Shown in pieces: positions 28,125 to 63,807 of a DNA stretch of 64,000 bases; within the stretch, counting starts at the first letter, position 1, and the number at the start of each line of letters is the position of its first letter. The notes beneath the pieces are model-generated. The model ran no database searches. It saw only the letters and a program-made list of their open reading frames with translations, and had not been told where the DNA came from. This DNA comes from Firmicutes bacterium AM55-24TS (GTDB lineage: Bacteria; Bacillota; Clostridia; UBA1381): assembly GCA_003460745.1 (NCBI GenBank), contig QTVU01000003.1:65754-129753 (forward strand). The letters run 5' to 3'. The position numbers and the translations under genes are program-made.

Positions 28125-28136
28125 AATTCGTTTCAC

Positions 28137-28308
28137 CTCCTGTAAGAATAATCACCTTTGAAAATCCAAAAGCAATGTCTTACATATAAAACAAAAAGCT
28201 CTCAGTCATAGACCAAGAGCTTTGTAATAGTCATTACTAAAACACCCTCGGTAGGACTTATGTCTGCAATGTACATTGCAAGCCGCCGACTGTCTACGGA
28301 TTTTCAAC
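28137..28308 (-). promoter_or_regulatory. Ribosomal protein L10 leader
   Basis: The 170-base leader of rplJ-rplL. On the minus strand it contains CCGTAGACAGTCGGCGG and CCTACCGAGG, the conserved strands of the L10-binding region, then an attenuator-like hairpin AAAGCTCT / AGAGCTTT (28223-28195) followed by TTGTTTT. Excess L10(L12)4 would bind and favour early termination. Confidence 0.8.
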
Positions 28309-28314
28309 TTTTAT

Positions 28315-28343
28315 AGTATAGCATACTTTAAACAGCTTGTCAA
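28315..28343 (-). promoter_or_regulatory. Promoter of rplJ-rplL
   Basis: Minus strand: TTGACA (28343-28338), 17-base spacer, TATACT (28320-28315). Confidence 0.8.
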
Positions 28344-34451: not shown

Positions 34452-37400
34452 TTGGACAAAAGAACAAGAAAAAGCGATATATGAGCCGTCAGGCAAGAAA
34501 AACATACTTGTTTCCGCCGCCGCAGGCTCTGGTAAAACGGCGGTACTTGTCGAACGTATCGTAAATCTTATAACCAACTCCGAAAACCCTTTTCCGATAG
34601 ACAGTATATTGGTAGCAACGTTTACGGAGGCGGCGGCTACCGAAATGAAAGAAAGAATTATAAACAGAATTAACAAATCATATCGTGAGGCACTTGAAAA
34701 CGGTGATATTGCACAAAGCAAATATTTAAAAGAACAAATGCACCTTACAGCAGGTGCGGATATTAACACAATCGATGCATTTTGTTTGCGAGTGGTCAAA
34801 AACAATTTTCACGTTTTAGGTATTGATCCGAATTTCAGCATTATGGACACCAACGAGGACAAAATGCTCATTGACGATACATTAACCGATTTATTCGCGG
34901 CACTTTACGAAACAGAAAACGAAGAAAACAAAAATCGTTTTCAACACCTTGTAACAACTTACGCATCAAACCGCGATGATGAGGGATTGAAAAAAGTTAT
35001 ACGCAAACTTTACAACTTTATACAGTCATTCCCCGATCCGATAAAATGGCTTTACGACAAAGCGGCTATGTATGACAATAATATGTCGCAAAGTGTATGG
35101 TTTAAGGAAATATTTTTATCAGTCCACAAAGAGAACATTTTAAAACATCACGGCGAATTTTGGGACAAGCTGATAAAAGAAATGATTGGGATTGTAAAGA
35201 AAGTATATCCCGATACAGATACTTCCTTACCGCCGGTTTGTATTCCTGAATGTGAGCAATATTGGGGAAAGATGTGGGAGTACATATGTATATGCGCCGA
35301 CAGTGTAAAAGCATTAAAATCAGCTGAATCATTTGACGAAGTCGGCTCAGCATACGATACTTACATCGCCAAAACAAAGCTTGGAACAGCCGTAAGAGCA
35401 TACAAAAAAGCTGAATCGCCGATTGAAGAGTGGCAGTATTACTCGAACAAATATAACTCTATGCGTGAAGATTTACTTAGCAGTACATCTTACTTGCCTA
35501 ACGGCACTGCCGAGCAATTTAACAAGTATGTTCACTCGGAAGAATTGAAACAAACGATTGACGATATTGTTTGGATAACGGTTTTGTTCTCGGAACTTTA
35601 TGAGAATGCAAAAGCAAAAAAGAACGTCAAAACATTCTCCGATATTGAACATCTTGCCTATCGTCTTTTCAGCGAAAATGAGAATATAAGAAACGAATAT
35701 TCGCTGAAATATAACGAAATACTTATAGATGAATATCAAGATACAAACGGCTTGCAGGATTCGATTTTCACGCTTATTTCGAGAGATAATAAAAATATGT
35801 TTATGGTCGGCGACTTAAAGCAAAGTATATATCGTTTTCGCGGCGGTGACCCGACTATTTTCAAGAAAAAATACAGTCTTGACAGTGATGAAATCGAAAT
35901 TATACACCTTTCACAGAACTTTAGAAGTCGTATGCAGGTTATCGACAGTATAAATGACGTGTTCAGATTTAATATGTCGCAGGATGTCGGTGACGTTGAT
36001 TATAACGACACCGCCGCTTTGCAGCGTGAAGAAAGCCGCGAATGTTATATAAACACCGCTGAAAATGCCCGGAATGACTACAAATCCGAATTTTACTGTA
36101 TCGGAAAATCGAAGGATTCAAAAGAATCTTCTTCCGATTATCTTGAGGCAGTTACCGTGGCAAACAGAATAAAAGAGCTTGTTGACAGTCATTTCAAGGT
36201 TTATGACGGCAACGGAAAATATCGTGATTTGAAGTACAGCGATATAGTCGTTCTTATGCGTTCGACAAAAGTAAACGGCGAACTTTTGCAGGAAATATTA
36301 GAATCAAACAACATACCGTCATTTTTGCAAAAGGAAGAATATTTTGAAAAACGTGAGATAAAGCTTATGCTTACACTTATTTCACTTATCAACAATCACA
36401 TTCAGGATATTCCGCTTGTAAGCGTTATGCGTTCACCGATAGGTAATTTTACCGAAAACGAACTTTCAAAAATCAGACTTGAAAACAGAGCCTCATCTTT
36501 TTACAATGCCGTAAAATATTATAAATCGTCTTCCGATGATTTGACGAAAGAAGAACAGAAACTTTCAAAAAAATGCAAGAGCTTTCTAAAAGACCTTGAC
36601 CGTTGGCGCGGATATGTTAAGATGAAGTCAATCTCCGCGTTGATTTGGACGTTGTATGAAGAAACGGGTTTTTACGACTTTATGGGTGCTCTCGAAGGCG
36701 GTGACGAGGCACAGGCAAATTTAAAACTTTTATATGAACGTGCAAGAAAGTATGAGGAATCGGGCTTTAAGGGTATCTTCAACTTCATTCGATATATCGA
36801 AAGAATTGAAAAGAGAAACGAAGATTTAAGCGGCGCTCAGCTTATCAATGAAAACCACAATGTTGTACGAATTATGACAATACACAAAAGCAAAGGTCTT
36901 GAATTTCCTGTCGTATTTATTATGCGCACAACTAAAAATATGCTTGCCGCAAAACCTACGGAGGAACACAGAATACAACTTCACAAAGATTTGGGGATCG
37001 GAATTGATTATATAAATTATGAAAATTTATATTTAAAAAAAGCTGATGTTTACAAAATATATAAAGCGACAAAATCAATCCGAAACGCTTTCGGAAGAAT
37101 TGCGTCTTTTGTATGTCGCAATGACTCGTGCAAAAGAAAAATTAATTATTGTTTCGTCCGACAAATACAAAGATGAAAATGAGTTTAATCAAAAAATCCA
37201 AGAAGCAGTATATAATGCAAAGACAATGCCAAAGTACATCATCGCATCAAATGCAAAAAAATATTCCGATTGGCTGATTCCGTCAATAGGCATATCGTTA
37301 AATCACTGGAATTTCATACCAAGATTTCTTGCCAAAACCACTGTATCGGATGTCATCAAAGAAAAACAAGAAACGATAAAGGTCAAAAACATTGATGAAA

Positions 37401-38146
37401 TGCGTGAAAAAGTGCAAAAGCTCCTTGAATTTCATTATGAACGTCCGCAATCCGGCAACATTCCGACAAAAACATCCGTAACGGCAATAAAAGAAATGGC
37501 GGAAGAAGAACTTACACGAAAAAGTGACATTGAATACGAGCCGATTTATATGATACAAAAACCTGACTTTATGCGTACAGAAAAACTCGGTACACAAATC
37601 GGTACGGCGCACCATCAGCTTATGGCATTTTTCGATATTGAAAAGATTAAGACGCTTACCGAAAACAATTACGCCGACTTTGTCGCATCCGAGCTTGTCC
37701 GCGTCACAAATGACGGTCAGATTGACAGCAATGTTGTTTCGGATAAAAATATAGCCGATATGATATGCAAAAATGTCACAAGCTTTTGGAAAAGCGATAT
37801 GGGTAAAGAAGTTTTAAGTGCCAAAAAAGTATATCGTGAAAGTCCTTTTGAAATATCAATTCCGGCATATGAATACGACAACACTTTACCTGACGAGTAC
37901 AGAAACGAACAGATTATTTTACAAGGTATTATTGACTTATACTTTGAGGATAAAAACGGTGATATAATCCTTGTCGATTACAAAACCGACAAATGCACTT
38001 CCAAAGCAGAACAACTTGCAGTTGCAAAAAAATACGAAAAGCAATTAATTCTTTATGCACGTGCCATGGAAAAAATCTTAAAAAAATCTGTAAAAGATAA
38101 ATATTTGTATTTATTTTCTCCGCAAAGTGTGGTAAAATTAGATTAG
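34444..38146 (+). CDS. addA: ATP-dependent helicase/nuclease subunit AddA (frameshifted in this sequence)
   Basis: The helicase half of AddAB. The first frame (34444 to about 37050) has Walker A VSAAAGSGKTAVLVERI, NTIDAFCLRVV, the helicase motif IDEYQDTNGLQD, GDLKQSIYRFRGGDP and VRIMTIHKSKGLEFPVVF. Around 37035-37065 the frame changes; the second frame continues with ETLSEELRLLYVAMTRAKEK and the C-terminal nuclease (GIIDLYFEDKNG, VDYKTDK). The change equals one extra base or two missing ones; an A-run (37035-37041) and an ATATAT repeat (37048-37053) are candidate sites. Repaired length is about 1233 residues, normal for AddA. ATG 34444 is 10 bases after GGAG and overlaps the addB stop. Confidence 0.93.
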
Positions 38147-41688: not shown

Positions 41689-44600
41689 TTAGCTAAATAA
41701 TGAAAGTATTTCTTCGTTAGAAAGACTTTTAAATGTGTCCGTATTAACGCGGACTATATCGTCTGCAAGATTTTTCTTGTTTTCCTGCAATTTAAGTATT
41801 TTTTCTTCTATTGTACCCTTTGCGGCAAGACGTATAACCTGTACCGCTTTTGTTTGTCCTATTCTGTATGCACGGTCGGAAGCCTGTTCCATAACTGCAG
41901 GATTCCACCATGGGTCATAGTGAATTACGGTATCCGCACCCGTCAGGTTAAGACCTACACCGCCTGCTTTAAGCGATATAAGGAACACGTTGTTTTCACC
42001 GCCGTTAAATCTGTCGGAAAGCTCCGCTCTCTCGTAAGACGGAGTTTTTCCGTCAAGGTAGAACGAATCTATCCCCACATTTTTCAGGCTCTCTCTTATA
42101 ATTGAAAGCATTGACGTAAACTGTGAAAATACAAGTATTCTGTGTCCCGACTCAACCGCATTCGTGACAAGTTCCATAAGCAAATCAAGTTTACCGCTGT
42201 CCTTATCATAGTTTTCGTCAAACAATGTAGGGTGACAACAAATCTGTCTTAGTCGCATAAGCAGTGTCAAAATACGCATTTTACCTTGACCGCCCTCGCC
42301 AAGCAACGCAAGCGTCTGATTTTTCGCAAGTGCAAGATACGATGTGTACATTTTCTTTTGTTCACCAGTAGCTCCGCATACATTGTGTTCTCGATTTTTT
42401 CCGGTAACTCGTTTAAAACATCGTTTTTCATACGTCTTAGCATAAACGGCTTTATCCTCGCTCTGAAACTGTCCGCCGTCATTTTGTCACCGTCTTTTAC
42501 AAGCGGCATTTCATATCTGTTTCTGAATTCGTGTGCCGAATACAAATATCCCGGCATTACAAAATCAAATATTGACCACAATTCAAGCAACGAATTTTCT
42601 ATCGGTGTACCGGTAAGGGCAAATTTATGCTCCGCATTTATTTTCTTGACGCTTCTTGCATTCATAGTTTTCGGATTTTTAATATGCTGTGCCTCGTCTA
42701 TAAAGCAATACGAAAATTCAAATTCTTTATAATGTGCAATATCGCGTCTTAAAAGCGGATATGACGTGATTACAAATTCATACTCACTGATAGTCTGTAT
42801 AAGTTTTTCTCTGTCCTCTTTTGCACCGTCAACTATTATGGTTTTGGCGTTCGGTGTAAATTTATTTATTTCGCTGAGCCAGTTATAAGTAAGTGCACTC
42901 GGTGCAACGATAAGCGTCGGTTTTTCGGGTTTTATTCCATGAATATACGCAATAACCTGCAACGTTTTACCAAGACCCATATCGTCCGCCAATATACCGC
43001 CGAAGCCAAGATAAGAAAGCTGGCTGAGCCATGCCATTCCGTCTTTTTGATAGCCGCGCAAAATGTCGCTGACTTCACTCGGAATTACAGGCTCTATATT
43101 TTTTATTTCCTCAATATATTTTTTAAATTCTTCATTCTTTTCAACAGATGAAAGAGAATTTAAGTAAAGTGCATGATACTTTGGAATTACTTTTTTACCG
43201 TTTTTAATATCTTCAAAAGAAAAATCAAGTTGATCAAGCAAATTGAAAATATCCTTTTGTTTACTGTTTTCAAGGTCGATAAAACTGCCGTTTGACAATC
43301 TGTAAAATCTTTTCTTCAGTTTAACCGCACTTAAAATTCCGCTGATCTGTTCATATGACAGATTACTTTCAAAGTCAGCCTCAAGCAAATCAACACCGCT
43401 GTTATATGTTACAGACGCACTTATATCCACTCGGTCCATAATCTTCAAGCCGGCAAATCTGTCGGAATAATAGAGCTTTGCTTTTTCTTTAAGTACAGGA
43501 ATTTCGTCCGATAGGAATAAATATATTTCTCTGTCCGATTTCAACATGAATGTACCGTCTTGTAAATTGAACATCTTAAATGACGAAAGCAAATCGTTTT
43601 CAATCTCATAGTCACGCACAACGATTTTGCCGTTACCGTTTACATCGTTCGGCAAACGTAATCCTATACTTCCGTAATTCGCCTTAACAACGGCAGTTAT
43701 ACCGCCTTGTGTCGCGTCAAAATACACTTCAAATGTCGGTTTCGCATCGACAATCATATCTTCGATACCGCGTGTTATAACGCCGTGCTTACTGCGTATA
43801 TCAGGTAAAACGTGAGTGGCAAACAAAATTGTATTGTCACCTTTAAAACTGATTTGTGTTCTGCCCTCTGTTGCAAGTGCATGGTATATCGGCATAAAAT
43901 ACTCACGCCATTCTTCGCTTGTGTGGTATATCGTGTTCTCGTAAAAGAACCACTCACCGTCATGCGTCAGTGCAAATCCTCTGTCACTGACAGACATATC
44001 AACTTCGCCGTCACCTGCGTCAACATCAATTATTATATCTGGATTGTCTTCTTCTATTCTTACATTGCCCAAAGAAAGCCCATCAAATACAACAGAAAAA
44101 TCAACATATTGCAGCAGAGGGAATATTCTCTTTGCCGCAAGTGAGCCGAAAGCAGTTTGATATGCCGCTTTCATATACATCTGAACATCTGCCGCACGAT
44201 TTTCGTATGTTTCCGCAAGTATTGCTATTATCTCGTCTTGATGTTTCGGAAATTCCGTTACTGCGGGATTATATGACGTGTATCTGTCAAATTTAAACTC
44301 CTTGCCTTTCAAATAACATTCCAAAAAATTTTCAATACCGTGTACTTTATTACCGCCGATTTCAACAGACATTGCATACGATACACCGTTTGTATTGTGC
44401 TTATTTATGTGCAGTGTAAACTTTGCATATAGTGGCTGTTTTTCGTATTTTCTTGACGCAAATTCACCGCAAAGCGTTTTTGCAATCTTATCGTTTTCAT
44501 CAACATAATCCGCACCCTCGTCAAGTTCCTTTTGACGTTGCTTTAATGTTGAAACAATATGTTTGCAAACAGAATTCATCGTTTCAAAATAAGGACAGGT

Positions 44601-44795
44601 ACAAAAACAATCCTCTACACCTTTTTCAGACAGTCTTACCTGCACATTGTAGAGTTCTTCCCCGTCAACTACGGCTGTTATTAAATTATCCTCACGTTTT
44701 CTTAAATGAACTCTGCCTTCTTTAAAGTATTCCAAGCCACGCTTGTAAATAGTCGCCGAGCAGGATTTTTTTATCATTGAATCTGTTATTTTCAT
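41689..44795 (-). CDS. SWIM-type SNF2 family helicase (frameshifted in this sequence)
   Basis: A DEAD/DEAH-box translocase of the Swi2/Snf2 class. The N-terminus has a SWIM zinc finger (CFCTCPYFETMNSVCKH). The helicase core has ILADDMGLGKTLQVIAY, FIDEAQHIKNPKTM and LTGTPIENSLLELW. At about 42361-42367 the frame is lost; one added base leads from MYAELLV into EQKKMYTSYLALAK, then LVFSQFTSMLSII, LISLKAGGVGLNLTGA and DRAYRIGQTKAVQV to the stop at 41689. Repaired length is about 1035 residues, normal for the family. It probably remodels protein-nucleic acid complexes; the exact role is unknown. A GAAGG site precedes ATG 44795. Confidence 0.9.
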
Positions 44796-49456: not shown

Positions 49457-50167
49457 ATGAATAACGATATGTTCGGAAAATGCGGTATGACACAGTTTGT
49501 CGGTGTCGGCGTTTGCGATACAATCGGTCTTTATATCGCCAATATTGATGACGATTTAAGAAAACAAATGAATATCCCGGAAAAGTTCCACGCGGTCGGT
49601 CTTATCGGTTCCCGTACAGGTGCGGGAGCACAAATTCAAGCCGTTGATGACGCGGTTAAAGCTACTTCGACAGAGGTTATCTCTATCGAAATTCCGCGTG
49701 ATACAAAAGGTTGGGGCGGTCACGGAAACTTTATCATAATCGGCGGTGAAACACCTGCCGACGTTAAGAGAGCCGTTGAATTAGCGCTTGAATACATAGA
49801 CATAAATGCCGGCGAAATATACATAAGTGAAGCAGGTCACATGGAATTCCAGTACAGTGCAAGGTGCGGTGAGGCTATCAACAAGGCATTTGATGTGCCG
49901 ATAGGCAGACCGTTCGGCTTTGTATGTGCGTCACCTGCTCCGATTGGTATGGTAATCGCAGATATTGCGTTAAAATCTGCCGGTGTCGAATTGATAAAAA
50001 CACTTCGTCCGGACAGCGGTACAAGCCATTCAAATGAAGTGATTATAATTTTCACAGGTGAAGCGTCAGCGGTTAAAACCGCCGTCACAGACGCACGTTC
50101 CGCAGGAATGCAACTTCTGCGTTCACTCGGCTCTGAACCTTTGCCTGTAACAAAACCATATATTTAA
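49457..50167 (+). CDS. Bacterial microcompartment trimer shell protein (PduB/EtuB-like)
   Basis: 236 residues with two tandem BMC domains, the BMC-T type that forms pseudohexameric trimers with a gated central pore. Conserved stretches are PEKFHAVGLIGSRTGAGAQI, DDAVKATSTEVISIEIPRDT, KGWGGHGNFIIIGG, SEAGHMEFQYSARC and GTSHSNEVIIIFTGEASAV. These match PduB/EtuB rather than EutL. AGGGAGGG precedes the ATG. It is a single gene with its own promoter and terminator; there is no other shell protein, signature enzyme or BMC-H gene within the window, so it is an orphan here. If the genome holds a microcompartment operon elsewhere, this protein could add to its shell. Confidence 0.9.
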   Translation: MNNDMFGKCGMTQFVGVGVCDTIGLYIANIDDDLRKQMNIPEKFHAVGLIGSRTGAGAQIQAVDDAVKATSTEVISIEIPRDTKGWGGHGNFIIIGGETPADVKRAVELALEYIDINAGEIYISEAGHMEFQYSARCGEAINKAFDVPIGRPFGFVCASPAPIGMVIADIALKSAGVELIKTLRPDSGTSHSNEVIIIFTGEASAVKTAVTDARSAGMQLLRSLGSEPLPVTKPYI

Positions 50168-51881: not shown

Positions 51882-52700
51882 TTAATTTTGTGTTTTTACA
51901 ATTTTTTCAAGTCTGTTTATGATATATGCGATAGCACTGCCGTTGTTAGACGGCGCTAAGTTGTCCGCAATTTTTTTCACGCTTTCTTCTGCGTTCTCAA
52001 CTGCATACGAAATTCCCGCTGCTTCCAACATTGAAATATCATTCATATTGTCACCGACAGCTATAATTTTGTTCTGCTCAATACCTATTTTTTTCGCCAT
52101 ATCAAGCATTCCCTTACCCTTTGAAACTCCGTTCGCAACAATGTCAAGATACTTGTCACCGCTTCTGACCGCATAGCCGTTATCATATTCGGCTCTGTAT
52201 ATCGGCTCGTACTTGTCAAGCAGTTCTCTTTCACCAATCAAAAGCACCTTTATCCAAGGTCTTTGCCAAATTTCATCGGGTAAACTATAAACAACCTCAT
52301 AGCTGCGTGTCAAAAATCGCTTTGTTTCCTCACATTCTCTGTAAACGTACACAATTTCATCACTGTACACTTCCAAACCTATTTGCGGAAAATCATCATA
52401 TACACGCTTTATTGCCTGTTTTCTGTTTTCCTCAATAAATCGTTCAAATACCGCACAATCTTTTTCATAGTCATATATCTTCGCACCGTTATGTAATACC
52501 GCCGGTGCATTTATGTGCAAATTCGGCATATATGCACGAACTGCCTCAACCATTCTTCCCGTTGCGACAGTAAACCGTCCGCCGTTTTTTATGAAATAAT
52601 CTATCGCTTGTCTGTTTTCTTCAGATATGGTGTGATTGTCATCAAGCAACGTTGCGTCCATATCCGAAACAAGCAAATAATCCGAAAATTTACCTTGCAT
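51882..52700 (-). CDS. Cof-type HAD family hydrolase
   Basis: 272 residues, HAD IIB: motif I SDMDATLLDD, FTVATGRMVEAV and motif IV AVGDNMNDISMLEAAG. AAGGTGG lies before ATG 52700, whose TAATG overlaps the stop of the GH13 gene, showing translational coupling; an in-frame extension to 52730 lies inside that gene. The coupling suggests a sugar phosphate substrate, but this is inference. Paralogue of the gene at 44965. Confidence 0.92.
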   Translation of the reverse strand: MQGKFSDYLLVSDMDATLLDDNHTISEENRQAIDYFIKNGGRFTVATGRMVEAVRAYMPNLHINAPAVLHNGAKIYDYEKDCAVFERFIEENRKQAIKRVYDDFPQIGLEVYSDEIVYVYRECEETKRFLTRSYEVVYSLPDEIWQRPWIKVLLIGERELLDKYEPIYRAEYDNGYAVRSGDKYLDIVANGVSKGKGMLDMAKKIGIEQNKIIAVGDNMNDISMLEAAGISYAVENAEESVKKIADNLAPSNNGSAIAYIINRLEKIVKTQN

Positions 52701-54634
52701 TATTTTTCCACCTTGTAAACCTTTATCCATAATCTCGGTATATCAATAAAATGAATACCGTCAGACGATTCAAGCAAGCTGTTATCGTCACTCGTTTGAC
52801 ATTTTAGTTTTCTCATACCGTATCTCGCAACATCTACACGTGCTCTTTCTTCTCTTGTACCCAGATTGGCAACAATAAGATATTTTTCATCATGATAACA
52901 ACGTACAAAACCGTACACGTGTCCGACTTTATGAACACATTCAAAATCGCCGATTGAGAATGCCTTTGAACTGTTTCTCAATTTAATCATATTCTTATAG
53001 CGTTGTCTGATTCTTCCGTCCTTGTCAACTTCGTCAACATTATCCCATGGATATGTCTGACGGCAGAACGGATCGCCATATCCCTGCATACCGATTTCGT
53101 CACCGTAATATATACAAGGCACACCAGGAAGCATCATCTGCAGTCCGACTACTAAAGTTGCTTTTTCCTTGGCAAGTTCAAGTGCATAGCCGTCAAGTTT
53201 AAAGCTCGCCTGAAAATCTTTTGATATTTCGTGTCTTGACGGTGCATCACCCATACGGGTCATTATTCTTTCGACATCGTGACTTGTTATTATATTCAAA
53301 AGCGAATAATAAGCAGGTGCAGGGTAATTTTCTTTAATGCTCATAAGACGTGCGTCAAATTCTTCAACGTCAATTCTTCCGCTTACCGCGTCAATCAACG
53401 CTCTGCGCATTGGGTAATTCATAACGGAGTCAAGCTCCTTACCCAAGAAATATTCACGTCTTTCACCGTAAGCGGACTTATTTGACGCGTCTTCCCAAAC
53501 TTCACCTATAATAACTGCATCTTTATCGGCTTTCTTTACGTTTTCTCTAAGTTCTTTAACGAAAAATCCCGGTAATTCATCAACAACATCAAGTCGCCAA
53601 CCCGACGCACCGTTCTTTATCCATCTTTTAACGATTGCATCTTTGTCCGAAAGCAAATACTTACGACATTCTTCACTGTGTTCTTCAATCTGCGGAAGTG
53701 TCGTCATTCCCCACCATGATTCATACACATCAGGCCAATCCATAAATCTAAACCAAGTGTAATACGGTGATTCCTTCGACTGATAAGCACCAATGCTGTC
53801 GTATTCGCCGTATTTATTAAAATAACGGCTGTTACTTCCCGTATGGTTAAATACACCGTCAAGAATTATGCGTATTCCCATTTCTTTTGCTTTTGAACAA
53901 AGCTCTTTAAATGTTTCCTCATCACCAAACATCGGATCGATTGTTTCATAATCGCCCGTATCGTATTTATGGTTTGAGTATGCTTTGAATATCGGATTTA
54001 AGTAAATTACCGATATTCCCAAATCTTTTAAATACGGCAATTTTTTAATTACACCTTTCAAATTACCGCCGAAAAAGTCATTTGCTTTATACTCACCGCC
54101 AAATTGTTCGGCTTTATAAAACGGTTGTTCGCCCCAATTACGCTTTATTATATCTGTACGATTTCCTAAAAATTCTCCGTTTTCGTTGCCGTTGCAAAAT
54201 CTGTCTACAAAAATTTGATATGCAATCCCCGTTTTAAACCAATCCGGAGTTTTGTAATCTTCGTTATAAACAGTTATCTGATACGAATTACTCGGTGAAT
54301 TAAAACACATTTCACCAATTCCGCCGAGTTGTTTTGAATTGTTGCCGTAATAAACCATACCTCTTTCGGTTTCAAGTTCAAAATAATACCAAACAAGTCC
54401 TGCTTTTTCAGGCATTTTCACGTTCACCGAATATATGCAGTGGTCACCGACATCAAAAATATACGGCATATCCTTTCGGACTTCGCCCTTGCCATCCTCC
54501 ATATAGACAAGACGAACCGCCGACGGAATACCTGCGCCCGACACAGCCAAACGCAATCTGACTTCACCGCCGCAAGTCACCGCTCCAAAAGGAAATCTAT
54601 AAAATTTTTCTCTGGAATTATGCTCTATATCCAT
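52700..54634 (-). CDS. GH13 alpha-glucosidase/neopullulanase-type hydrolase
   Basis: 644 residues: an N-terminal carbohydrate-binding beta-sandwich (to about 125), the catalytic barrel and a C-terminal beta domain. Catalytic regions: DGVFNHTG, GWRLDVVDE (nucleophile Asp), IIGEVWED (acid/base Glu) and ITSHDVERI. With no signal peptide it is intracellular and probably acts on maltodextrins or cyclodextrins released from glycogen. AAGGGG precedes the ATG. It sits just after the glgP terminator with no room for a promoter, so it is probably expressed by read-through from glgA-glgP. Confidence 0.93.
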   Translation of the reverse strand: MDIEHNSREKFYRFPFGAVTCGGEVRLRLAVSGAGIPSAVRLVYMEDGKGEVRKDMPYIFDVGDHCIYSVNVKMPEKAGLVWYYFELETERGMVYYGNNSKQLGGIGEMCFNSPSNSYQITVYNEDYKTPDWFKTGIAYQIFVDRFCNGNENGEFLGNRTDIIKRNWGEQPFYKAEQFGGEYKANDFFGGNLKGVIKKLPYLKDLGISVIYLNPIFKAYSNHKYDTGDYETIDPMFGDEETFKELCSKAKEMGIRIILDGVFNHTGSNSRYFNKYGEYDSIGAYQSKESPYYTWFRFMDWPDVYESWWGMTTLPQIEEHSEECRKYLLSDKDAIVKRWIKNGASGWRLDVVDELPGFFVKELRENVKKADKDAVIIGEVWEDASNKSAYGERREYFLGKELDSVMNYPMRRALIDAVSGRIDVEEFDARLMSIKENYPAPAYYSLLNIITSHDVERIMTRMGDAPSRHEISKDFQASFKLDGYALELAKEKATLVVGLQMMLPGVPCIYYGDEIGMQGYGDPFCRQTYPWDNVDEVDKDGRIRQRYKNMIKLRNSSKAFSIGDFECVHKVGHVYGFVRCYHDEKYLIVANLGTREERARVDVARYGMRKLKCQTSDDNSLLESSDGIHFIDIPRLWIKVYKVEK

Positions 54635-54685: not shown

Positions 54686-57199
54686 TTATTTAATTGGTGT
54701 CAAGTGCCAAATGTTCTTATTGTAATCTTCAATAGTTCTGTCACTTGAGAAGAATCCTGCACTTGCAGTATTCAAGATTGCCTTTTCAATCCACTTATCT
54801 CTGTCTTGATAATCAGCAGACATCTTTTCTTGAGTCTTCATATATTCTTCAAAATCTCTGATTACCATATATGTGTCAGGGAATCCGTAGTCACCGAACA
54901 ACAATGTTTGATACAAATCTCTGAACATTTGGTTGCTGCCCGGAACGATTGAACCGTCAACAAGCTGTTCAAGTGCGTGTCTTAGGCTTGCGTTTGATGA
55001 GTAGATATTCTTAACTTCATCAGTTCCCGCATACTTAACTCTTGCGGCAACTTCGTCAGCCTTTAGACCGAAGATATATATATTGTCTTCACCGACCTGT
55101 TCAAGCATTTCAACGTTTGCACCGTCAAGTGTACCGATTGTAAGCGCACCGTTAAGCATAAACTTCATGTTACCTGTACCCGAAGCTTCCTTACCCGCTG
55201 TTGAAATTTGTTCTGAAATATCAGCCGCAATGATAAGTTTTTCAGCGATTGATACGCTGTAATTTTCAAGGAATACAACTTTAATCTTATCCTTAACTCT
55301 CGGATCGTTGTTAATCATATCTCCGACTGAGTTAATAAGCTTGATAATAAGCTTTGCTCTTTTATAACCCGGAGCAGCCTTTGCACCGAATATATATGTC
55401 TTTGGATAGTAATTTTCAGCATATACGTTATCTTCAAGAATTCTGTTGTATTCTGCAAGAATATGAAGTACGTTCATCATCTGACGCTTATATTCATGCA
55501 ATCTCTTACACTGCACATCAAAGATAGAATCAGGATTTACAACTATATCGTTGTGTTCCTTAATATATTGTGCAAGTCTAACCTTGTTATTGCGCTTAAT
55601 TTCAGCAAATTGCTTCTTGAATGCAGGGTCTTTAGCATATTTCTTTAGCTTTGAAAGTTCTGAAGCGTCCTTGATCCAATTCTTACCTATCTTTGAAGAA
55701 ATAAGCTCAGTAAGTTCCGGGTTACAGTTAGCAATCCATCTTCTGAATGTAATACCGTTTGTGATTGCATAGAAGTGGTCGTTATTCATATTATAGTAAT
55801 CAGCAAAAATATCCTGTTTTAGAATATCTGTATGCAACTTTGAAACACCGTTTACTGCGAAACAGCTTGCAAGACACATATTAGCCATAAATATCTGATT
55901 ATCAGAAATAATTGCCATATACTTATGCTTAGCCGAATCGTTAGGATAAACTTCGTTAAGTCTGATCATAAGACGTCTGTTCATTTCTTCAACGATCATA
56001 TATACACGCGGAAGAATCTTTCTGAACATATCAAGCGGCCACTTTTCAAGAGCCTCGCTCATTACTGTATGGTTTGTGTATGCGAATACATGAGTTACGA
56101 TGTCCCATGCCTCATCCCAACCAAGACCTTTTTCGTCCATCAACAAACGCATCATTTCAGGAATAGCCATTGTAGGGTGTGTATCATTGATATGAATAAC
56201 GACCTTATCAGGCAATTTTGACCAATCTTGACCGTTTCTGTTTTCAAATTCTTTCAAAATCCACTGCAATGTTGCAGAAACAAGGAAATATTGTTGCTTT
56301 AATCTAAGTTCCTTACCCTCTGTATGATTATCTTCCGGATAAAGTACCTTTGAAATAACTTCTGCAAGTTCCTTTTCTTCAACGGCACGAACATAGTTAC
56401 CGCTGTTAAATTCCTGCATATTCATATGGTCAGGAGATTTTGAACTCCACAATCTTAATTTATTTACAATTTTTGAATCATAACCGCAAAGAGGTACATC
56501 ATAAGGCATAGCCAAAATTGTATGTGAGTTGTTGTAACGGCAAGTAAATTTACCGTCTACCCAATCAGTATAAACTTCACCGCCAAATTTAACTTCAACA
56601 GTTTCTTCAGGTCTTGCGATTTCCCACGCATTACCGTTATCAAGCCATGAATCAGGAAGTTCTGTCTGATAGCCGTCAACAATCTTTTGTCTGAATAAGC
56701 CGTATTCATAACGGATTGTACAACCATATGCAGGCAAATCCAATGTTGTAAGTGAGTCGATAAAGCAAGCTGCAAGACGTCCCAAACCGCCGTTACCAAG
56801 ACCTGCGTCATTTTCAAGTTCGGCAATTTCAGGAAGTGAGTAACCCAAATCATTTAAAACGTGCTGATATTCTTCAGTCTGCATAAGGTTTAAAATGTTT
56901 GTGCAAAGAAGTCTGCCCATAAGGAACTCAAATGATAAATAATAAAGTTTTTTTGCACCCATCTTCTTTACAGTCTGATGAGATACGGCCCACTTTTCCA
57001 TAATTCTGTCACGAACAGTAAGTGCACATGCAGTATAAACCATATGAGGAGTTGCATCCTCCATAACTTTACCGAAATGTCTGTTTACCTTACCTACAAT
57101 TTCCTTCTTCAATACTTCTTCAGACGCTGTCAATTTTTTTGTTGCTGTTGCTGTTGTTTTTGTATTTTTATTTTGTGCCATACTTTTAGCTTGTGCCAT
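54686..57199 (-). CDS. glgP: Glycogen phosphorylase
   Basis: Releases glucose-1-phosphate from glycogen using pyridoxal phosphate. 837 residues: LSFEFLMGRLL, NDAGLGNGGLGRLAACF, VVIHINDTHPTMAIPE and the cofactor site EASGTGNMKFMLNGALTIGT (Lys). The first 30 residues are a Lys/Thr/Ala-rich extension (KSMAQNKNTKTTATATKK) resembling the tails of GlgA and GlgB. AAGGGGTG precedes ATG 57199. It follows glgA by 60 bases. Confidence 0.96.
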   Translation of the reverse strand: MAQAKSMAQNKNTKTTATATKKLTASEEVLKKEIVGKVNRHFGKVMEDATPHMVYTACALTVRDRIMEKWAVSHQTVKKMGAKKLYYLSFEFLMGRLLCTNILNLMQTEEYQHVLNDLGYSLPEIAELENDAGLGNGGLGRLAACFIDSLTTLDLPAYGCTIRYEYGLFRQKIVDGYQTELPDSWLDNGNAWEIARPEETVEVKFGGEVYTDWVDGKFTCRYNNSHTILAMPYDVPLCGYDSKIVNKLRLWSSKSPDHMNMQEFNSGNYVRAVEEKELAEVISKVLYPEDNHTEGKELRLKQQYFLVSATLQWILKEFENRNGQDWSKLPDKVVIHINDTHPTMAIPEMMRLLMDEKGLGWDEAWDIVTHVFAYTNHTVMSEALEKWPLDMFRKILPRVYMIVEEMNRRLMIRLNEVYPNDSAKHKYMAIISDNQIFMANMCLASCFAVNGVSKLHTDILKQDIFADYYNMNNDHFYAITNGITFRRWIANCNPELTELISSKIGKNWIKDASELSKLKKYAKDPAFKKQFAEIKRNNKVRLAQYIKEHNDIVVNPDSIFDVQCKRLHEYKRQMMNVLHILAEYNRILEDNVYAENYYPKTYIFGAKAAPGYKRAKLIIKLINSVGDMINNDPRVKDKIKVVFLENYSVSIAEKLIIAADISEQISTAGKEASGTGNMKFMLNGALTIGTLDGANVEMLEQVGEDNIYIFGLKADEVAARVKYAGTDEVKNIYSSNASLRHALEQLVDGSIVPGSNQMFRDLYQTLLFGDYGFPDTYMVIRDFEEYMKTQEKMSADYQDRDKWIEKAILNTASAGFFSSDRTIEDYNKNIWHLTPIK

Positions 57200-57259: not shown

Positions 57260-59196
57260 TTATTTTACAGTCTTCTTTTGTGTCGTTTTCTTTGATGCCG
57301 TTGTCTTCGCTTTTGCACCTTCCTTAACCGTTTCGGCTTTAGTCGTTGTCTTTGCCGTCGACTTAGCCGATTCAGCCTTTTTAGGCTCTGTTTTTTCTGT
57401 TTTTGCCGTCTTTGCAGGCTCTGCCTTTTCAGCTTTTACAGGTTCAGCCTTTGCAGGTTCTTCTTTTACCGCTTTCTTTGCTGTTGACTTAGCCGTTGTT
57501 TTTTTAGTTGTAGTTTTCTTAGCCGCTGTTTTTCTTGTTGTTTTCTTCGTTGTTGTCTTTTTTGCAGCAGGGGCTTTTTCCTCCTCAAAAGGATTTTTAA
57601 CTTCAACTATTTCAGGCTCTTTTGCACCGTCTGCCGCAGCCTTTGCAGCCGCCTCGGCATCTGCCTTTATACTGTCCTCAAAAGTTTCCTTTTTTTCTTG
57701 TTTCTTTGTAGTTTTTGCGGCTGTCTTTCTGGCAGGCTTTTTCTTTTCAGGTAAATCATATATACCTGTAAGTTCTTGATACAAGTGAATATATTTATCA
57801 GCCGATACATTCCATGAGTAATCTACTGCCATACCGTTATCAACGATTTTCTTCCACTCGTCTTTTCTGTCATAGTAAATCTGCATTGCATACCAAATAA
57901 TATTTATCATTTCGTCTGCATTGTAGTTTGCGAATGAGAAACCGGTTCCCTCGCCTGTATATTCATTATATGGAATAACAGTGTCTTTAAGTCCGCCTGT
58001 TTCACGAACAATCGGAACAGTACCGTATCTCATACTGATAAGTTGTGACAAACCGCAAGGCTCAAATCTTGACGGCATTAAAAATGCGTCACTTGCCGCA
58101 TAAATTTTACGTGCCATATCATTTGAAAAGTAAATTTGTGCCGAGAATCTGTCAGGATACTTCCAAGCATAATGTCTGAAAAGATTTTCATACTTTTCGT
58201 CACCTGTACCAAGTACAACTACTTGACAGCCACCGTTGCAAAGTTCCTCAATCTTGTAAGCTACAAGGTCAAAACCTTTTTGGTCTGTAAGACGTGATAC
58301 AATACCAATCATCATCTTATCGGCATTCACTTCAAGACCTAATTCTTCCTGCAACTTTTTCTTGTTCTCAGCCTTTTTCTTGTGAACTGTTTTTGCTGTA
58401 TAGTTTTGATAAATAGACTGATCTGTATTCGGATCCCAGTCAATATAAGAAATACCGTTTACTATACCCAAAAGGTCGTTCTGTCTTGCACGAAGAAGAT
58501 TGTGAAGTCCTTCTCCGTATTCTTCTGTTGTGATTTCGTTTGCGTAAGTTGAGCTTACCGTAGAAACCTTGTTTGCATAAACCATACCGCCCTTTAACAA
58601 GTTTGCGTCCTTGTAGAATTCAAGCTTGTCGGAAGTAAAGTAATAGTCGCTTATACCCATTGCGTCCTTAATCTTGTTGAAATCCCATCTTCCCTGGAAC
58701 TTCAAGTTATGAATTGTCATAACAGTCTTGATACCCTGATAGAACGGATTATCCTGGAACGTATCAAGGAATACAGGTATCGGTCCTGTCTGCCAGTCGT
58801 TACAGTTAATAACGTCCGGTCTGAAATCTATTGTCGGCAAAATTGACAATACAGCCTTTGAAAAGAATATAAACTTTTCACAATCAAGGTGTATAAAGTC
58901 ATAAGCTTATCGCCGTTAAAGTAAAACTCGTTGTCTATGAAATAGAACTTACAGCCGTTATACTCCAACTCGAAAACACCGACATACTGTTTTCTCCAAG
59001 CCATATCAATATAGATATGGTCAATATATTTCATCTTGTCCTTATATTCTTGCGGTATACAGTTGTACAGCGGTAAAATCACTCTTGCGTCAACGCCTTT
59101 TTCGTTAAGCGCTGCAGGCAAAGAACCCGCTACATCACCAAGACCTCCTGTTTTAACAAAAGGTGCCGCCTCCGAAGTAGCAAATAAAACTTTCAT
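57260..59196 (-). CDS. glgA: Glycogen synthase with a long Lys/Thr/Ala-rich tail (frameshifted in this sequence)
   Basis: Transfers glucose from ADP-glucose to glycogen (GT5). The N-terminus reads [18 protein letters not shown]; the frame is lost near 58904-58909 (minus strand GATAAGCTT), and adding one base gives [19 protein letters not shown], then [34 protein letters not shown] and ETGGLKDTV. Repaired length is about 645 residues. Normal GlgA ends near residue 480; here about 163 more residues follow, rich in KKTT, TAKK and AEPAK repeats with one acidic segment. The start ATG has AAAGGAA. Own promoter at 59225-59253. Confidence 0.94.
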
Positions 59197-59224
59197 AACA
59201 AATTATTCCTTTCTATATGCTTAA

Positions 59225-59253
59225 ATCTTATCTCTATAAGAATTATTTGTCAA
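59225..59253 (-). promoter_or_regulatory. Promoter of glgA-glgP
   Basis: Minus strand: TTGACA (59253-59248), 17-base spacer, TAAGAT (59230-59225). A hairpin AGAACTG / CAGTTCT at 59285-59311 upstream may end the glgB-glgC-glgD transcript. Confidence 0.6.
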
Positions 59254-59341
59254 TAAATATTCTTAAATTCCGTAAAACTTCAACAGAACTGCTCAATTTT
59301 TGAACAGTTCTATTATATATTTGTCATTAAAATCTTTATTA

Positions 59342-60460
59342 TTAAATCTTCGTTCCTTTTGATATTGCAAGAGGATAGCTCTCTTGTCCTATAAGTTTTC
59401 TTCCTTTTGTTATATCAACTTCCTTATCAAATACAACATGACTAAGTTCAACGTCCTCTTCAATCACAGAATCCTGCATAATGATTGAATTTTTAATGAC
59501 CGCACCCTTTGCGACTTTTACACCTCTTGAAAGTACACTGTTAATTACAGTACCCTCAATTACACAACCGTCTGAAATAAAGCTGTTCTGTACAGATGCG
59601 TCACTTCCGTATTTAGTCGGCGACTGGTCTTTTGTCTTTGTGTAGATAGGATTTTTAGGATTAAACAATTCACGTCTTATGTCCGAATTTAAGAAATTCA
59701 TATTATTTCTGTAATATGCTTTAAGTGAATCAATCTTATCAGTATAACCCGTATACTCATATCCGTAAATTCTAAGGCCTGTCATTTTCTTAACAAGTGC
59801 ATCCTTTACGAAATCTCGGTCGCCTCTTGCACTGCATTCATCAACAATACTTTCAAGCAAAGCCTTTTCCATAACGTAAACATCCATACTTGCCATACTC
59901 GACTTTGGATAATACGGCTGAACCTCAATATCTGTAATACGATTTTCCTTGTCAAGTTCAAGCGTTGTAAATCTTGAAATTTCTCTTTCAGGCATACCTT
60001 TCATATCTTTATAAAGAATTGTAACGTCTGCCTGACTTTCGATATGATTTTTTACAACTTCTTCAAAATCAATATTGTAGATGCTGTTACCGAGCGACAA
60101 TATTACATATGTCTGCTGACTTCTGTGAATAAAGTCACTTATACCTGCAAGTATATCTATATTACCCTTTATTGAACCGTATGATACCTTTTCCAGATTC
60201 GGAGGAAGTATATTAAGTCCCCAATTCTTTCTGTCAAGGTCCCAAGGCTTACCCGATTTAATGTGGTCCATCAAAGATGAGTAATTTGCCTCTGTTGCAA
60301 CACCGATATTTGTTATACCCGAGTTTGCCATACACGAAAGCACGAAATCTATTATTCTGTATCTTCCTGCGATAGGAAGTGCTGAATTTGCTCTTATATC
60401 TGTAATCGGAGGTATTCTGTCATTACTTGTCAGAATAATACCCATAGTATCTCTTCTCAT
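59342..60460 (-). CDS. glgD: Glucose-1-phosphate adenylyltransferase, GlgD subunit
   Basis: About 372 residues of the nucleotidyltransferase and left-handed beta-helix folds. The catalytic signatures are degraded: GIILTSNDRIPPITDIRA stands where GlgC has [12 protein letters not shown], and SLGNSIYNID where GlgC has SGDHIYKMH. GlgD is known as a regulatory partner that raises GlgC activity in Firmicutes. ATG 60460 follows GGGG by about 10 bases; an alternative ATG is at 60445. It overlaps the end of glgC. Confidence 0.93.
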   Translation of the reverse strand: MRRDTMGIILTSNDRIPPITDIRANSALPIAGRYRIIDFVLSCMANSGITNIGVATEANYSSLMDHIKSGKPWDLDRKNWGLNILPPNLEKVSYGSIKGNIDILAGISDFIHRSQQTYVILSLGNSIYNIDFEEVVKNHIESQADVTILYKDMKGMPEREISRFTTLELDKENRITDIEVQPYYPKSSMASMDVYVMEKALLESIVDECSARGDRDFVKDALVKKMTGLRIYGYEYTGYTDKIDSLKAYYRNNMNFLNSDIRRELFNPKNPIYTKTKDQSPTKYGSDASVQNSFISDGCVIEGTVINSVLSRGVKVAKGAVIKNSIIMQDSVIEEDVELSHVVFDKEVDITKGRKLIGQESYPLAISKGTKI

Positions 60461-60477
60461 TGGCTCTGTCCCCTTTC

Positions 60478-61683
60478 CTATGCTTCTACCATACTGCCCT
60501 TGCAAATATCTTCTTCAACGCCGACTTCGGCACCGCTTTCGATAAGAACAAGATCATTGGTACACAATTTTGATGCATATTTGTTATCGTCCGAAGAATT
60601 AACTCCGACTTTCGCACCGTCACCTATAACTGCGTCTGCACCTATAACAGCTTTTTCAATTACAACATTCTTTCCGATTTTCGCACCCGGCATAATTACC
60701 GAATCACTGACAACACTGCCTTCTCCGAGTTCAACACCGCCGAAAATAACCGAATGTTTTATTTCGCCGTCAATAAAGCAGCCCTCTGTTACGGTTGAAT
60801 TTGTTATCTTAGCATTTTGTCCAACATAATGAGGAGCAAGTGCCATATTTCTTGAATAGATACTCCAACTTCTGTCGTTTAGATCAAACTTAGGTGGTTG
60901 GTCAACAAGATCCATATTTGCCTCCCACAAGCTATGAATTGTGCCGACATCTTTCCAATAGCCCTCAAATCTGAATGATACCATCTTTTCGCCGTTTTCA
61001 AGCATTGTAGGAATTATATTCTTACCGAAGTCATTTGCAGAACTTGGGTCACGTTCGTCAGCCTCCAAATACTTTTTAAGCACTTCATATGTAAATATGT
61101 AAATACCCATTGACGCAAGATTACTCTTAGGCTCTGCCGGTTTTTCTTCAAAGTCTGTGATAGTACCCTCTTCGTCAACGTTCATTATACCGAATCTGCT
61201 TGCCTCCTCCCAAGGTACAGGCATTACGGCAATAGTTACAGCCGCACCCGATTCCTTGTGTGCCTTCAGCATTTCGCCATAGTGCATTTTATAGATATGG
61301 TCGCCTGAAAGTATAAGAACGTTTTCAGGTTTAAAGCTTTCAAGAAAACTTAAGTTTTGATAAATGGCATTTGCCGTACCTTTATACCATTCACCCGCTT
61401 TTGCACTTTGGTATGGAGGAAGTACATAAACACCGCCATGACTTCTGTCCAAATCCCAAGGGTTTCCGTTACCGATATATCTATTTAGTTCCAACGGTTG
61501 GTACTGTGTAAGAACACCTACCGTATTAATTCCTGAATGTACACAATTTGAAAGCGGAAAATCTATGATTCTGTACTTTCCGCCGAAAGGCACTGCCGGC
61601 TTAGCAACATTTTTTGTCAACGCACCAAGTCTTGAGCCTTGACCGCCTGCAAGTATCATTGCAACGCAATCCTTTGATACCAT
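60478..61683 (-). CDS. glgC: Glucose-1-phosphate adenylyltransferase, catalytic subunit
   Basis: Makes ADP-glucose, the first committed step of glycogen synthesis. 401 residues: [71 protein letters not shown] and GYWKDVGTI, then a hexapeptide beta-helix. AGGGAG precedes the ATG. It lies between glgB and glgD in one transcript. Confidence 0.97.
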
Positions 61684-61731
61684 AAAATCATCTCCCTATA
61701 ATTTTTCTGATTAGATTTTTATTAAAACCGA

Positions 61732-63807
61732 CTATTTAGCCGATTTATTTGTCCTTGTTGATGTTTTCTTCGCAGCGGTCTTTGTCGCGGTTGTTTTTTT
61801 AACCGCCGCTTTTTTCGCCGTTGCACTTTCGGTTTTATCTGTTGGTTTTTTAGCAGTTTTTGATGCAGTCGTTTTCTTTTTGCTTGCCGCAGTTTTGTCC
61901 GCCGGCTTTTTCTTTAGGAACATAACCGAATTGCCGTCGATAGCAACTTCAATAGTGTACATCATATCTGAAAACTGCATATTCTTTGTCTTGTATACTT
62001 TCTTTGTAATACGTTTGTTTCCGCCGTACTTGACAGCACTCGAATGGAATACTACTTCATATTCGCCCGCAAGCGGAACACCGATTTTATATATCGGTCT
62101 TTCGACAGGTGTGAAGTTTGCAACCACTACAACATTATCAGCTGCGTGTCTGCCGCGTCTTATATAGGAAAGAACACTGTTTTCACTGTCAGCCTCATTA
62201 ACCCATCTGAAGCCGTCCCAACTTGTATCAAGTTCCCATAAAGCCTTGTTTTCCATATAGAAATGGTTAAGGTCTTTTACATACTGATGCAATCTCTTAT
62301 GCTTATCTATTTCAAGTACGTTCCATTCAAGTTGGTCGTCATAACGCCACTCAAGCATTTGACCGAATTCACCGCCCATAAACAACATTTTCTTTCCCGG
62401 CATTGTCATATAATAGCCGAGTAATGTTCTGTATGCCGCAAATTTTTCGTCATACTCACCGAACATCTTGTTAAGCATAGAACCCTTGCCGTGTACCACT
62501 TCATCATGTGACAAAGGCAAAATATAATTTTCGGAATAAGCATACATCATCATAAATGTAAGCAAACTGTGATTGTCCTTACGGAAATACGGATCCATAC
62601 CCATATAACGAAGTGTATCGTTCATCCAGCCCATATTCCACTTGTAATTAAAACCAAGTCCGTCATTTTCAGGCGGTGCGGTTACAAGCGGCCAAGCCGT
62701 AGATTCTTCCGCAACCATCATAAAGTTAGGGAATTCCGTCCCCATAATCTTGTTAAGCTTTTTAAGAAAATCAACTGCCTCAAGATTACCGTTTCCGCCG
62801 TATTCGTTCGGAACCCACTCACCGTCATTTCTCGAATAATCACGGTAAAGCATTGAAGATACCGCATCAACTCTTATTCCGTCAATGTGATACTGTTCTG
62901 CCCAAAAATACGCTGATGAAATAAGGAATGAAATAACTTCGCTCTTTGAATAGTCAAAAACCATTGTTCCCCAATCCTTATGCTCACCCAATCGCGGATC
63001 GGCATATTCATAAACAGGAGTTCCGTCAAACATTCTCAGTCCGTGTGCGTCACGCGGAAAATGAGCAGGTACCCAGTCCATTATAATTCCGATATGATTT
63101 TTGTGACACTTATCTATAAGATATTTCAAATCTTCACTTTCGCCGTATCTTGTCGTAGCTGAGAAAAATCCCGTTACCTGATACCCCCAGGAGCCGTCGA
63201 ACGGATATTCGGTGATAGGCATAAGCTCTATATGCGTGTAACCCATCTTCTTAACATAAGGAACAAGCTCGTCCGCCAGTTCACGATACGTATAAAAACT
63301 TCCGTCATCATGTATTTTCCATGAGCCGATGTGGATTTCGTATATATTCATAGGCTCCGTCAAAGTGCTGTTTTTACCGCGTGCACTTATCCAAGCCTTA
63401 TCGCCCCATTTGTAATTATTTGAAATATCCTTTGTTACGGACGCAGTACCCGGTCTCAGTTCACTCTTTACAGCATACGGATCGGCTTTGTAATAAGTTT
63501 CTCCGTTCTCAGCCTCAATAGCATACTTATACAGCATTCCTTCTTCTATATCTGTAAAAAAGCCATACCAAACTCCGCTTGTTTCTATTCTTTCAAGCAT
63601 TTTGTCATAGCCGTTCCAATCGTTGAAATCGCCCACGACTCTAACACTTACGGCTTTAGGTGCCCAAACGGCAAATCTCCAACCGTCAACGCCGTCTATT
63701 TTGACTTTATGTGATCCAAGCATTTCATATGACTTAAAATTGTCACCGGAATTAAATAAGTACGTTTGAAAACGACTTATATTCGCCCAGGTCTTTTCTT
63801 CTGTCAT
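61732..63807 (-). CDS. glgB: 1,4-alpha-glucan branching enzyme with a Lys/Thr/Ala-rich tail
   Basis: Introduces alpha-1,6 branches into glycogen (GH13_9). 691 residues: an N-terminal CBM48 module (FAVWAPKAVSVRVVGDFNDW), the barrel with DWVPAHFPRD, GIRVDAVSSMLYRD (nucleophile), MMVAEESTAWP (acid/base) and LPLSHDEVVHGKGS, then a C-terminal beta domain. The last 60 or so residues are a basic tail (KKPADKTAASKKKTTASK and on) with no counterpart in standard GlgB. AGGGAGGG precedes the ATG. First gene of glgB-glgC-glgD. Confidence 0.96.
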   Translation of the reverse strand: MTEEKTWANISRFQTYLFNSGDNFKSYEMLGSHKVKIDGVDGWRFAVWAPKAVSVRVVGDFNDWNGYDKMLERIETSGVWYGFFTDIEEGMLYKYAIEAENGETYYKADPYAVKSELRPGTASVTKDISNNYKWGDKAWISARGKNSTLTEPMNIYEIHIGSWKIHDDGSFYTYRELADELVPYVKKMGYTHIELMPITEYPFDGSWGYQVTGFFSATTRYGESEDLKYLIDKCHKNHIGIIMDWVPAHFPRDAHGLRMFDGTPVYEYADPRLGEHKDWGTMVFDYSKSEVISFLISSAYFWAEQYHIDGIRVDAVSSMLYRDYSRNDGEWVPNEYGGNGNLEAVDFLKKLNKIMGTEFPNFMMVAEESTAWPLVTAPPENDGLGFNYKWNMGWMNDTLRYMGMDPYFRKDNHSLLTFMMMYAYSENYILPLSHDEVVHGKGSMLNKMFGEYDEKFAAYRTLLGYYMTMPGKKMLFMGGEFGQMLEWRYDDQLEWNVLEIDKHKRLHQYVKDLNHFYMENKALWELDTSWDGFRWVNEADSENSVLSYIRRGRHAADNVVVVANFTPVERPIYKIGVPLAGEYEVVFHSSAVKYGGNKRITKKVYKTKNMQFSDMMYTIEVAIDGNSVMFLKKKPADKTAASKKKTTASKTAKKPTDKTESATAKKAAVKKTTATKTAAKKTSTRTNKSAK

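Follow-up and report, generated by a model that had tools for sequence, protein, structure and literature searches.

Why would the enzymes that build bacterial glycogen end in long, histone H1-like tails? The question is raised by the glg cluster in a 64,000-nucleotide stretch of DNA from Firmicutes bacterium AM55-24TS (contig QTVU01000003.1, positions 65,754 to 129,753; the whole stretch is called the window below). The cluster lies on the minus strand in the order glgB, glgC, glgD, glgA (two frames) and glgP, followed by a GH13 gene. A first-pass annotation made from the letters alone had noticed extensions rich in lysine, threonine and alanine on glycogen synthase (GlgA), on 1,4-alpha-glucan branching enzyme (GlgB) and, at the N-terminus, on glycogen phosphorylase (GlgP), and had listed several purposes for them, nucleoid attachment among these. 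We found that the tails of GlgA and GlgB are real, and that their placement is structured by lineage, being neither random nor strictly co-occurring. By analogy with other storage granules, they may hold glycogen to the nucleoid.

Basic C-terminal tails of GlgA and GlgB

The glgB gene (61732..63807, minus strand) encodes a protein of 691 residues with CBM_48 and Alpha-amylase Pfam domains, which was also recognized by NCBIfam models; NF008967 matched residues 11-636 with 897.9 bits (cut-off 577). The best three of these models stop at residues 632-636, and 59 residues extend beyond position 632 (61732..61911, stop codon included). This tail has an isoelectric point (pI) of 10.7, a net charge of +17 and 1% hydrophobic residues, and it is rich in K, T and A.

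GlgA is encoded on the minus strand by an N-terminal piece (58828..59196) and, in a different frame, by a piece carrying the C-terminal 529 residues (57260..58849). The frame break falls at 58828-58906; in G001, the nearest genome compared (it shares 61% of sampled words with the window), and in protein clusters the gene is a single intact frame, and the N-terminal piece has intact counterparts in G001 and in the cluster protein P0002. GT5 Pfam domains were above cut-off in the 529-residue piece. In the NCBIfam test the broken GlgA was represented by the near relative P0002, whose full catalytic region scored above cut-off with NF001898 / TIGR02095 (636 bits vs 603, residues 1-477 of 658). Within the 529-residue piece the core extends to residue 364, and residues 365-529 form a tail of 165 residues (57260..57757 with the stop codon; pI 10.0, net charge +23, 6% hydrophobic, rich in K, T and A) composed of a basic linker, a conserved segment and a long basic linker. 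Ordinary GlgA and GlgB proteins have the same catalytic domains above cut-offs, whereas here about 165 and 59 residues are added at the C-terminus; the first-pass annotation had given roughly 163 and 60. The cores under these basic tails are acidic (pI 5.2 for the G001 GlgA and 5.4 for GlgB, vs 10.0 and 10.7 for the tails). The first description of the tails as KKTT and TAKK repeats was right as to their K/T/A-rich, basic composition, but it overlooked that the GlgA tail holds a conserved, net acidic segment. As for disorder, the AlphaFold2 model of P0002 has a predicted local distance difference test (pLDDT) score below 40 across the last ~118 residues, which bears out the expectation for GlgA; for GlgB, disorder was judged from composition alone.

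The GlgA of G001 (659 residues, one intact frame) carries a 179-residue tail of the same kind, and therefore the frame break in the window did not make the tail. Full-length tailed GlgA proteins are also found in protein clusters, one of which (P0002) has 375 member sequences, and GlgB is unbroken. The tails are thus real, and sequence error, which the first-pass annotation had already thought improbable for GlgB, is out as their origin. The K, T and A codons in the tails are a synonymous mixture and the DNA repeats in the tail regions are degenerate only, with weak 15-base periods, which argues against a recent microsatellite origin.

Tails of this type are rare among the other proteins. They end 2 of the 113 frames of at least 100 residues in the window, namely GlgA and GlgB, and, by a somewhat stricter rule, the same two proteins alone when 1.235 Mb of G001 (2007 frames) is examined. 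This sample is about 40% of the 3.1 Mb genome, includes the glg locus by design and counts a few kb twice; within it, the idea that such tails are a general genome habit was not borne out. A DNA scan of G001 for KKxxKK codons was weak (22 matches vs 32 in the reversed control); four of the 22 matches were in glgA or glgB, and of the others three were read, none of them K/T/A-rich.

Distribution of the tails and a conserved segment in GlgA

The family of G001, which we infer to be Monoglobaceae, comprises 70 genomes in 17 genera, mostly of gut bacteria, and glg DNA was obtained from 63 of them (left out were G034, G047, G052, G053, G057, G062 and G065). The GlgA count consists of 60 complete frames, from the window and its relatives. 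It leaves out G017 and G027 (C-terminus missing at contig ends), G021 and G059 (no match) and G004 (open frame), and contains G056 twice; one of the two G056 tails is identical to that of G064, and this second GlgA is likely to be contamination. The GlgB count, also of 60 frames, leaves out G004, G006, G014 and the cut G031. G038 was scored as having no tail, its segment being in an adjacent short frame, and G007 was scored as tailed under the basic-tail rule despite having 16 residues past the core.

GlgA tails of at least 40 residues were present in 56/60 frames, and all 56 were net positive (+7 to +26). The basic-tail rule was passed by 55/60 GlgA and 25/60 GlgB frames. Among 56 GlgA/GlgB pairs both proteins had a tail in 22, GlgA only in 30, GlgB only in none and neither in four. 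The GlgB tail tracks genus: it was found in 17/17 members of genus g1, the window included, and in 0/14 of g9. The linkers of the GlgA tail vary freely in length and order among the relatives.

For the comparison beyond the family, a single scan for relatives of GlgB supplied 80 named loci, of which seven (L003-L009) were taken as family and 73 as outside; these loci are the closest to the window GlgB and are mutually related. A basic tail was present on 29/69 complete outside GlgB proteins, so the statement that standard members of these families lack such tails is not confirmed, and on 2/48 complete GlgA proteins. In the 44 outside loci with both genes, the tail was on GlgB only in 16, on GlgA only in one, on both in none and on neither in 27. 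Other frames of at least 200 residues across all 80 loci passed the rule in 4/598 cases, three of which look spurious; the Fisher test of GlgB against these neighbouring genes (p 1.6e-27) is uncorrected for relatedness and serves as a guide only. The co-occurrence of tails expected from a shared purpose therefore has a mixed outcome: inside the family GlgA has the tail nearly always and GlgB by genus, and outside it the tail, where there is one, is mostly on GlgB alone.

In a class-wide GlgA search 112/147 genomes had a match. The 30 frames from outside the family that were read had tails of 0-10 residues in 25 cases and of 3 residues in one, and the remaining four, which belong to a distant family of the same class (f38; L400-L403), had K/A-rich tails of 69-106 residues with no NPF segment. 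Judged from these sequences, basic GlgA tails look to have arisen more than once. Some outside tails were unusual in length or composition. The GlgB tail of L062 is very long (270 residues, EEVKAAPKAEVK repeats), that of L081 has 208 residues and is K/T-rich, and that of L058 has 94, mostly acidic with a K-rich end. GlgA tails of 189 (L034) and 179 residues (L017), with K/T-rich or K/A-rich parts, came from metagenome-assembled genomes named Succiniclasticum and Selenomonadales.

The conserved segment of the window GlgA tail has 33 residues (57587..57685), a predicted helix followed by VxNPF. The end pattern [VIA]x[ND]P[FY] is present in 40/60 GlgA tails. Positions that the pattern does not impose are kept in many of these tails as well: 33 have F at -31 and 33 have P at -9, 30 have D at -24 and 30 have E at -10, and 37 have I/V at -7. 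In an alignment of 95 of 122 GlgA proteins, chosen by full-length similarity to P0008, which has the segment, residues F506, P528 and P536 of P0002, all within the segment, were at least 90% conserved. AlphaFold2 predicts a single helix in P0002 at 506-524, with mean scores of 61, 75 and 61 for the ten-residue blocks over 501-530, between flanks (494-503 and 538-658) with pLDDT below 50. Taken as a 39-residue cut, the segment is net acidic in 35/40 tails, that of the window included, and is flanked on one or both sides by a basic linker.

A profile of the segment at E<=1e-7 found 41/70 family genomes, in one place each and always at GlgA, where in G038 and G004 it falls in an adjacent short frame; no match at any other place in a genome was better than E=0.005. 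A search of the segment region against 5.8 billion proteins gave seven matches among 498 candidates, all of them GlgA or pieces of GlgA as judged from domains or sequence; the candidates were limited to proteins not far from GlgA in length. In genera g12 and g15 the GlgA segment is related to this one but distinct, with weak matches in five genomes (E 7e-4 to 0.04), and in several genera that retain the basic tail the segment is absent or altered. In the G001 GlgA no Pfam domain matched at the position of the segment at E<=1. The segment probably serves for docking, on a partner protein or back on GlgA, and since it has no Pfam match and is confidently found in one protein only, it makes a clear target for partner finding.

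A possible nucleoid tether and its alternatives

Of the purposes proposed in the first-pass annotation, nucleoid attachment is the one for which analogy offers close precedents. In Pseudomonas aeruginosa the H1-like C-terminal domain of AlgP is required for normal size, number and spacing of polyphosphate (polyP) granules, and tethering of these granules by AlgP is the authors' speculation (PMC9239181). The histone-like domains of PhaM and PhaF bind DNA and position granules of polyhydroxybutyrate, as summarized in a review (PMC13052382), and PhaF was described as largely disordered without ligands (PMC3574117). GlgA and GlgB resemble AlgP in having a K- and A-rich, H1-like C-terminal domain on a storage-granule protein; in AlgP this domain has 154 residues with KPAA repeats (PMC9239181). 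AlgP is, however, a separate DNA-binding protein of polyP granules, whereas the glg tails are fused to the synthase and branching enzyme of a neutral polymer, have KKTT/TAKK repeats and, in GlgA, an embedded conserved segment. PhaF and PhaM likewise combine a granule-binding part with a histone-like basic C-terminus (PMC3574117, PMC13052382). In contrast to these, no phasin domain was found on GlgA or GlgB in a Pfam scan at E<=1, and granule binding would have to come from the GT5 or GH13/CBM48 cores. What GlgA and GlgB share with such tethers is a lysine/alanine-rich C-terminal tail predicted to be disordered from composition and charge and, for GlgA, from pLDDT.

We therefore consider it possible, though somewhat short of probable, that by the same principle the tails tether the glycogen-bound enzyme, and hence the particle, to a polyanion, either nucleoid DNA or some other. 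In such a scheme GlgA and GlgB would sit on the growing glycogen particle through their catalytic cores (and the CBM48 domain of GlgB), and the basic tails would protrude and attach to a polyanion, for which nucleoid DNA is the likeliest candidate. Each particle would thereby be held loosely to the nucleoid, kept from polar clumping and shared between daughter cells. The conserved segment would serve separately for docking, on another protein or on GlgA, with the basic linkers holding it. Either enzyme could mark the particle, and the basic tail could then be on GlgA or on GlgB by lineage; the observed lineage swap between the two enzymes fits an interchangeable particle-bound anchor. Also in favour of a tether are the net positive charge of all 56 long GlgA tails, the rarity of such tails among other frames in G001, in the window and in the named loci, and the combination of acidic cores with basic tails. 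Pfam HC2 (PF07382), an H1-like nucleoprotein family of similar composition, matched, below its cut-off of 40 bits, 3/7 relatives' GlgA scanned (27.4 bits for P0035, the best, 25.8 and 11.2) and, at 13.4 bits, a fragment with the window GlgB tail at its end. That unpositioned glycogen can be costly is suggested by Escherichia coli csrA mutants, in which granules taken as glycogen are polar, GlgA fused to green fluorescent protein gathers at old poles and old-pole cells cease dividing, while few csrA glgA cells did (PMC4836754). The working principle, a storage-granule tether, is known; what may be new is the glycogen cargo and the fusion to the synthase, in a protein that is not a phasin.

Several observations weigh against a nucleoid tether. 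A review states that bacterial glycogen is without protein content to cluster particles (PMC11046441). D and E make up about 15% of the window GlgA tail, some of them grouped in acidic blocks, and the tail has KKTT/TAKK and not KPAA repeats. HC2 gave no match at E<=1 on the window GlgA and GlgB scanned whole, nor on the G001 GlgA, and there is no sign of common descent. A query with the tail in six genomes found no match beyond GlgA at E<=0.001; the next match in G001 was GroEL (E=0.01, taken as chance), and the GlgA of G064 was missed by this query. Such tails are also not confined to glycogen enzymes: of 20 selected sites read in relatives, four (in G016, G026, G048 and G035) had K/A-tailed proteins that were SCP2-like or looked similar, one had two other G026 proteins with such ends and two had G016 frames in which the K-rich stretches are not at the C-terminus. 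The helix-NPF segment is superfluous for a pure tether. Finally, many organisms have neither tail (27/44 outside loci), and glycogen does not generally need one.

The small K/A-tailed proteins are L310 2119-2625 (G016), L313 2098-2646 (G048), L311 (G026) and L324 (G035), with tails of ~55-85 residues by eye. Pfam gave Alkyl_sulf_C and SCP2 for L310 and L313, and the other two are similar by eye; none was present in the examined part of G001.

In one alternative the tails would drive an enzyme-glycogen condensate by attracting the acidic GlgC, GlgD and GlgP cores and each other (complex coacervation), so that ADP-glucose is channelled, and NPF would be the docking site between pathway enzymes. 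GlgC, GlgD, GlgP and the GH13 protein do have pI values of 5.0-6.2 and a negative net charge, the segment is confidently found in GlgA alone, as a specific docking ligand would be, and a phase-separation role has been discussed for the AlgP tail (PMC9239181). Slightly acidic cores are, however, ordinary and GlgD is nearly neutral (-2), and the fact that several genera with a basic tail have the segment altered or not at all also speaks against a condensate, which we regard as unlikely.

It is similarly doubtful that the basic stretches are a solubility or spacer sequence without a specific target, lengthened neutrally at the C-terminus, with only the helix-NPF part functional. The freely varying linkers would suit such a spacer, as would low-complexity DNA that is expandable by slippage (the weak 15-base periods) and the many homologues without a tail. 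Against it, net charge is positive in every one of the 56 tails of at least 40 residues, the codons are mixed, and such tails are missing from the remaining frames of the G001 sample.

Rather less likely is that the tails bind a polyanion other than DNA, above all polyP (or RNA or an anionic membrane), and so connect glycogen with a different store or a surface. Polycationic peptides and proteins form condensates with polyP, and the lysine-rich domain of AlgP is a candidate for contacts of this kind (PMC9239181); a PP_kinase domain was found in 7/9 relatives searched. G016 and G026, however, have both GlgA and GlgB tails and no PP_kinase match in genomes that are 90-91% complete, other polyP kinases not having been searched. 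PolyP made by PP_kinase may thus not be required, and polyP as the sole target is somewhat weakened.

That the helix-NPF segment is a bacterial microcompartment targeting peptide is highly improbable: although such peptides usually take the form of a short helix on a flexible linker, shell domains occur in 35/39 genomes searched (9/9 + 26/30; two of the 39 outside the family) and the window has a solitary PduB-like shell gene at 49457-50167, shell domains were present in 14/15 searched family genomes without the full segment (e.g. G007, G010, G011, G054 and G058) and missing from G039, which has the segment (91% complete). Segment and shell genes thus do not go together in their occurrence, which weakens the case for a microcompartment-targeted enzyme.

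Returning to the nucleoid tether, a wider proposal would be that, mostly in Bacillota, enzyme-borne H1-like tails position and share glycogen, were acquired repeatedly (by GlgA in one family, by GlgB elsewhere) and, with a dedicated VxNPF receptor, form a nucleoid-coupled partition system; in this full form the proposal is a speculative one that we think improbable. Little is known of how bacteria position and divide glycogen. If tethering were true, a carbon store widespread among bacteria would come under the rule established for polyhydroxyalkanoates and proposed for polyP. As the tail belongs to the enzyme itself, the idea can be tested by simple truncation, and the lineage swap between GlgA and GlgB makes it testable by comparison. 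Searches of open-licence literature gave no title or abstract beginning that describes basic tails on GlgA or GlgB, and those on Monoglobus pectinilyticus and glycogen and on PhaF/PhaM gave none either. The words 'disordered' and 'lysine-rich' have no occurrence in 300,000 characters of the text of the glycogen review (PMC11046441), and the word glycogen is absent from the text covered of a 2025 review of bacterial organelle positioning (PMC13052382).

GlgP, GlgC, GlgD and other parts of the window

GlgP (54686..57199, minus strand, 837 residues) has an N-terminal arm of ~27 residues that contains K, T and A and had been taken for a ~30-residue extension like those of the other two enzymes. 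The excess depends on the model: position 11 of NF011562 (glycogen phosphorylase) aligns with residue 24, an excess of 13 residues, and position 3 of the broader TIGR02093 aligns with residue 28, giving ~25 extra residues. Ahead of the aligned part, muscle phosphorylase (2pyd) has 30 residues vs 36 in the window GlgP. In relatives, if counting begins at the probable start codon, GlgP mostly has ~10-25 mildly K/T-rich residues ahead of the core. The arm is short and variable and is no convincing H1-like tail. GlgC (60478..61683) and GlgD (59342..60505), both on the minus strand, have no tail; in the family these two proteins have a few extra residues at most, with the exception of the GlgC of G030 (17 residues). 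The picture of three enzymes sharing one basic, disordered extension is therefore reduced to GlgA and GlgB. The GH13 gene beyond glgP is at 52700-54634 in the minus-strand cluster.

The PduB-like shell gene is on the plus strand, ~4.5 kb from glgP, and scored 324.6 bits vs 310. G001 has a like PduB frame on its glg contig (C8), apart from the main shell gene group (contig C20).

Elsewhere in the window, an AddA-like helicase (34435-38146) and an SNF2-type helicase (41689-44795), both named by eye, are both broken into two frames that overlap. A MetK-like frame, also named by eye, has an odd terminal sequence (11498-12460). All three are consistent with further frame errors in the window. A ribosomal protein L10 leader at 28183-28317 (47.7 bits, gathering score 44) lies upstream of an L10-like gene at 27525-28136.

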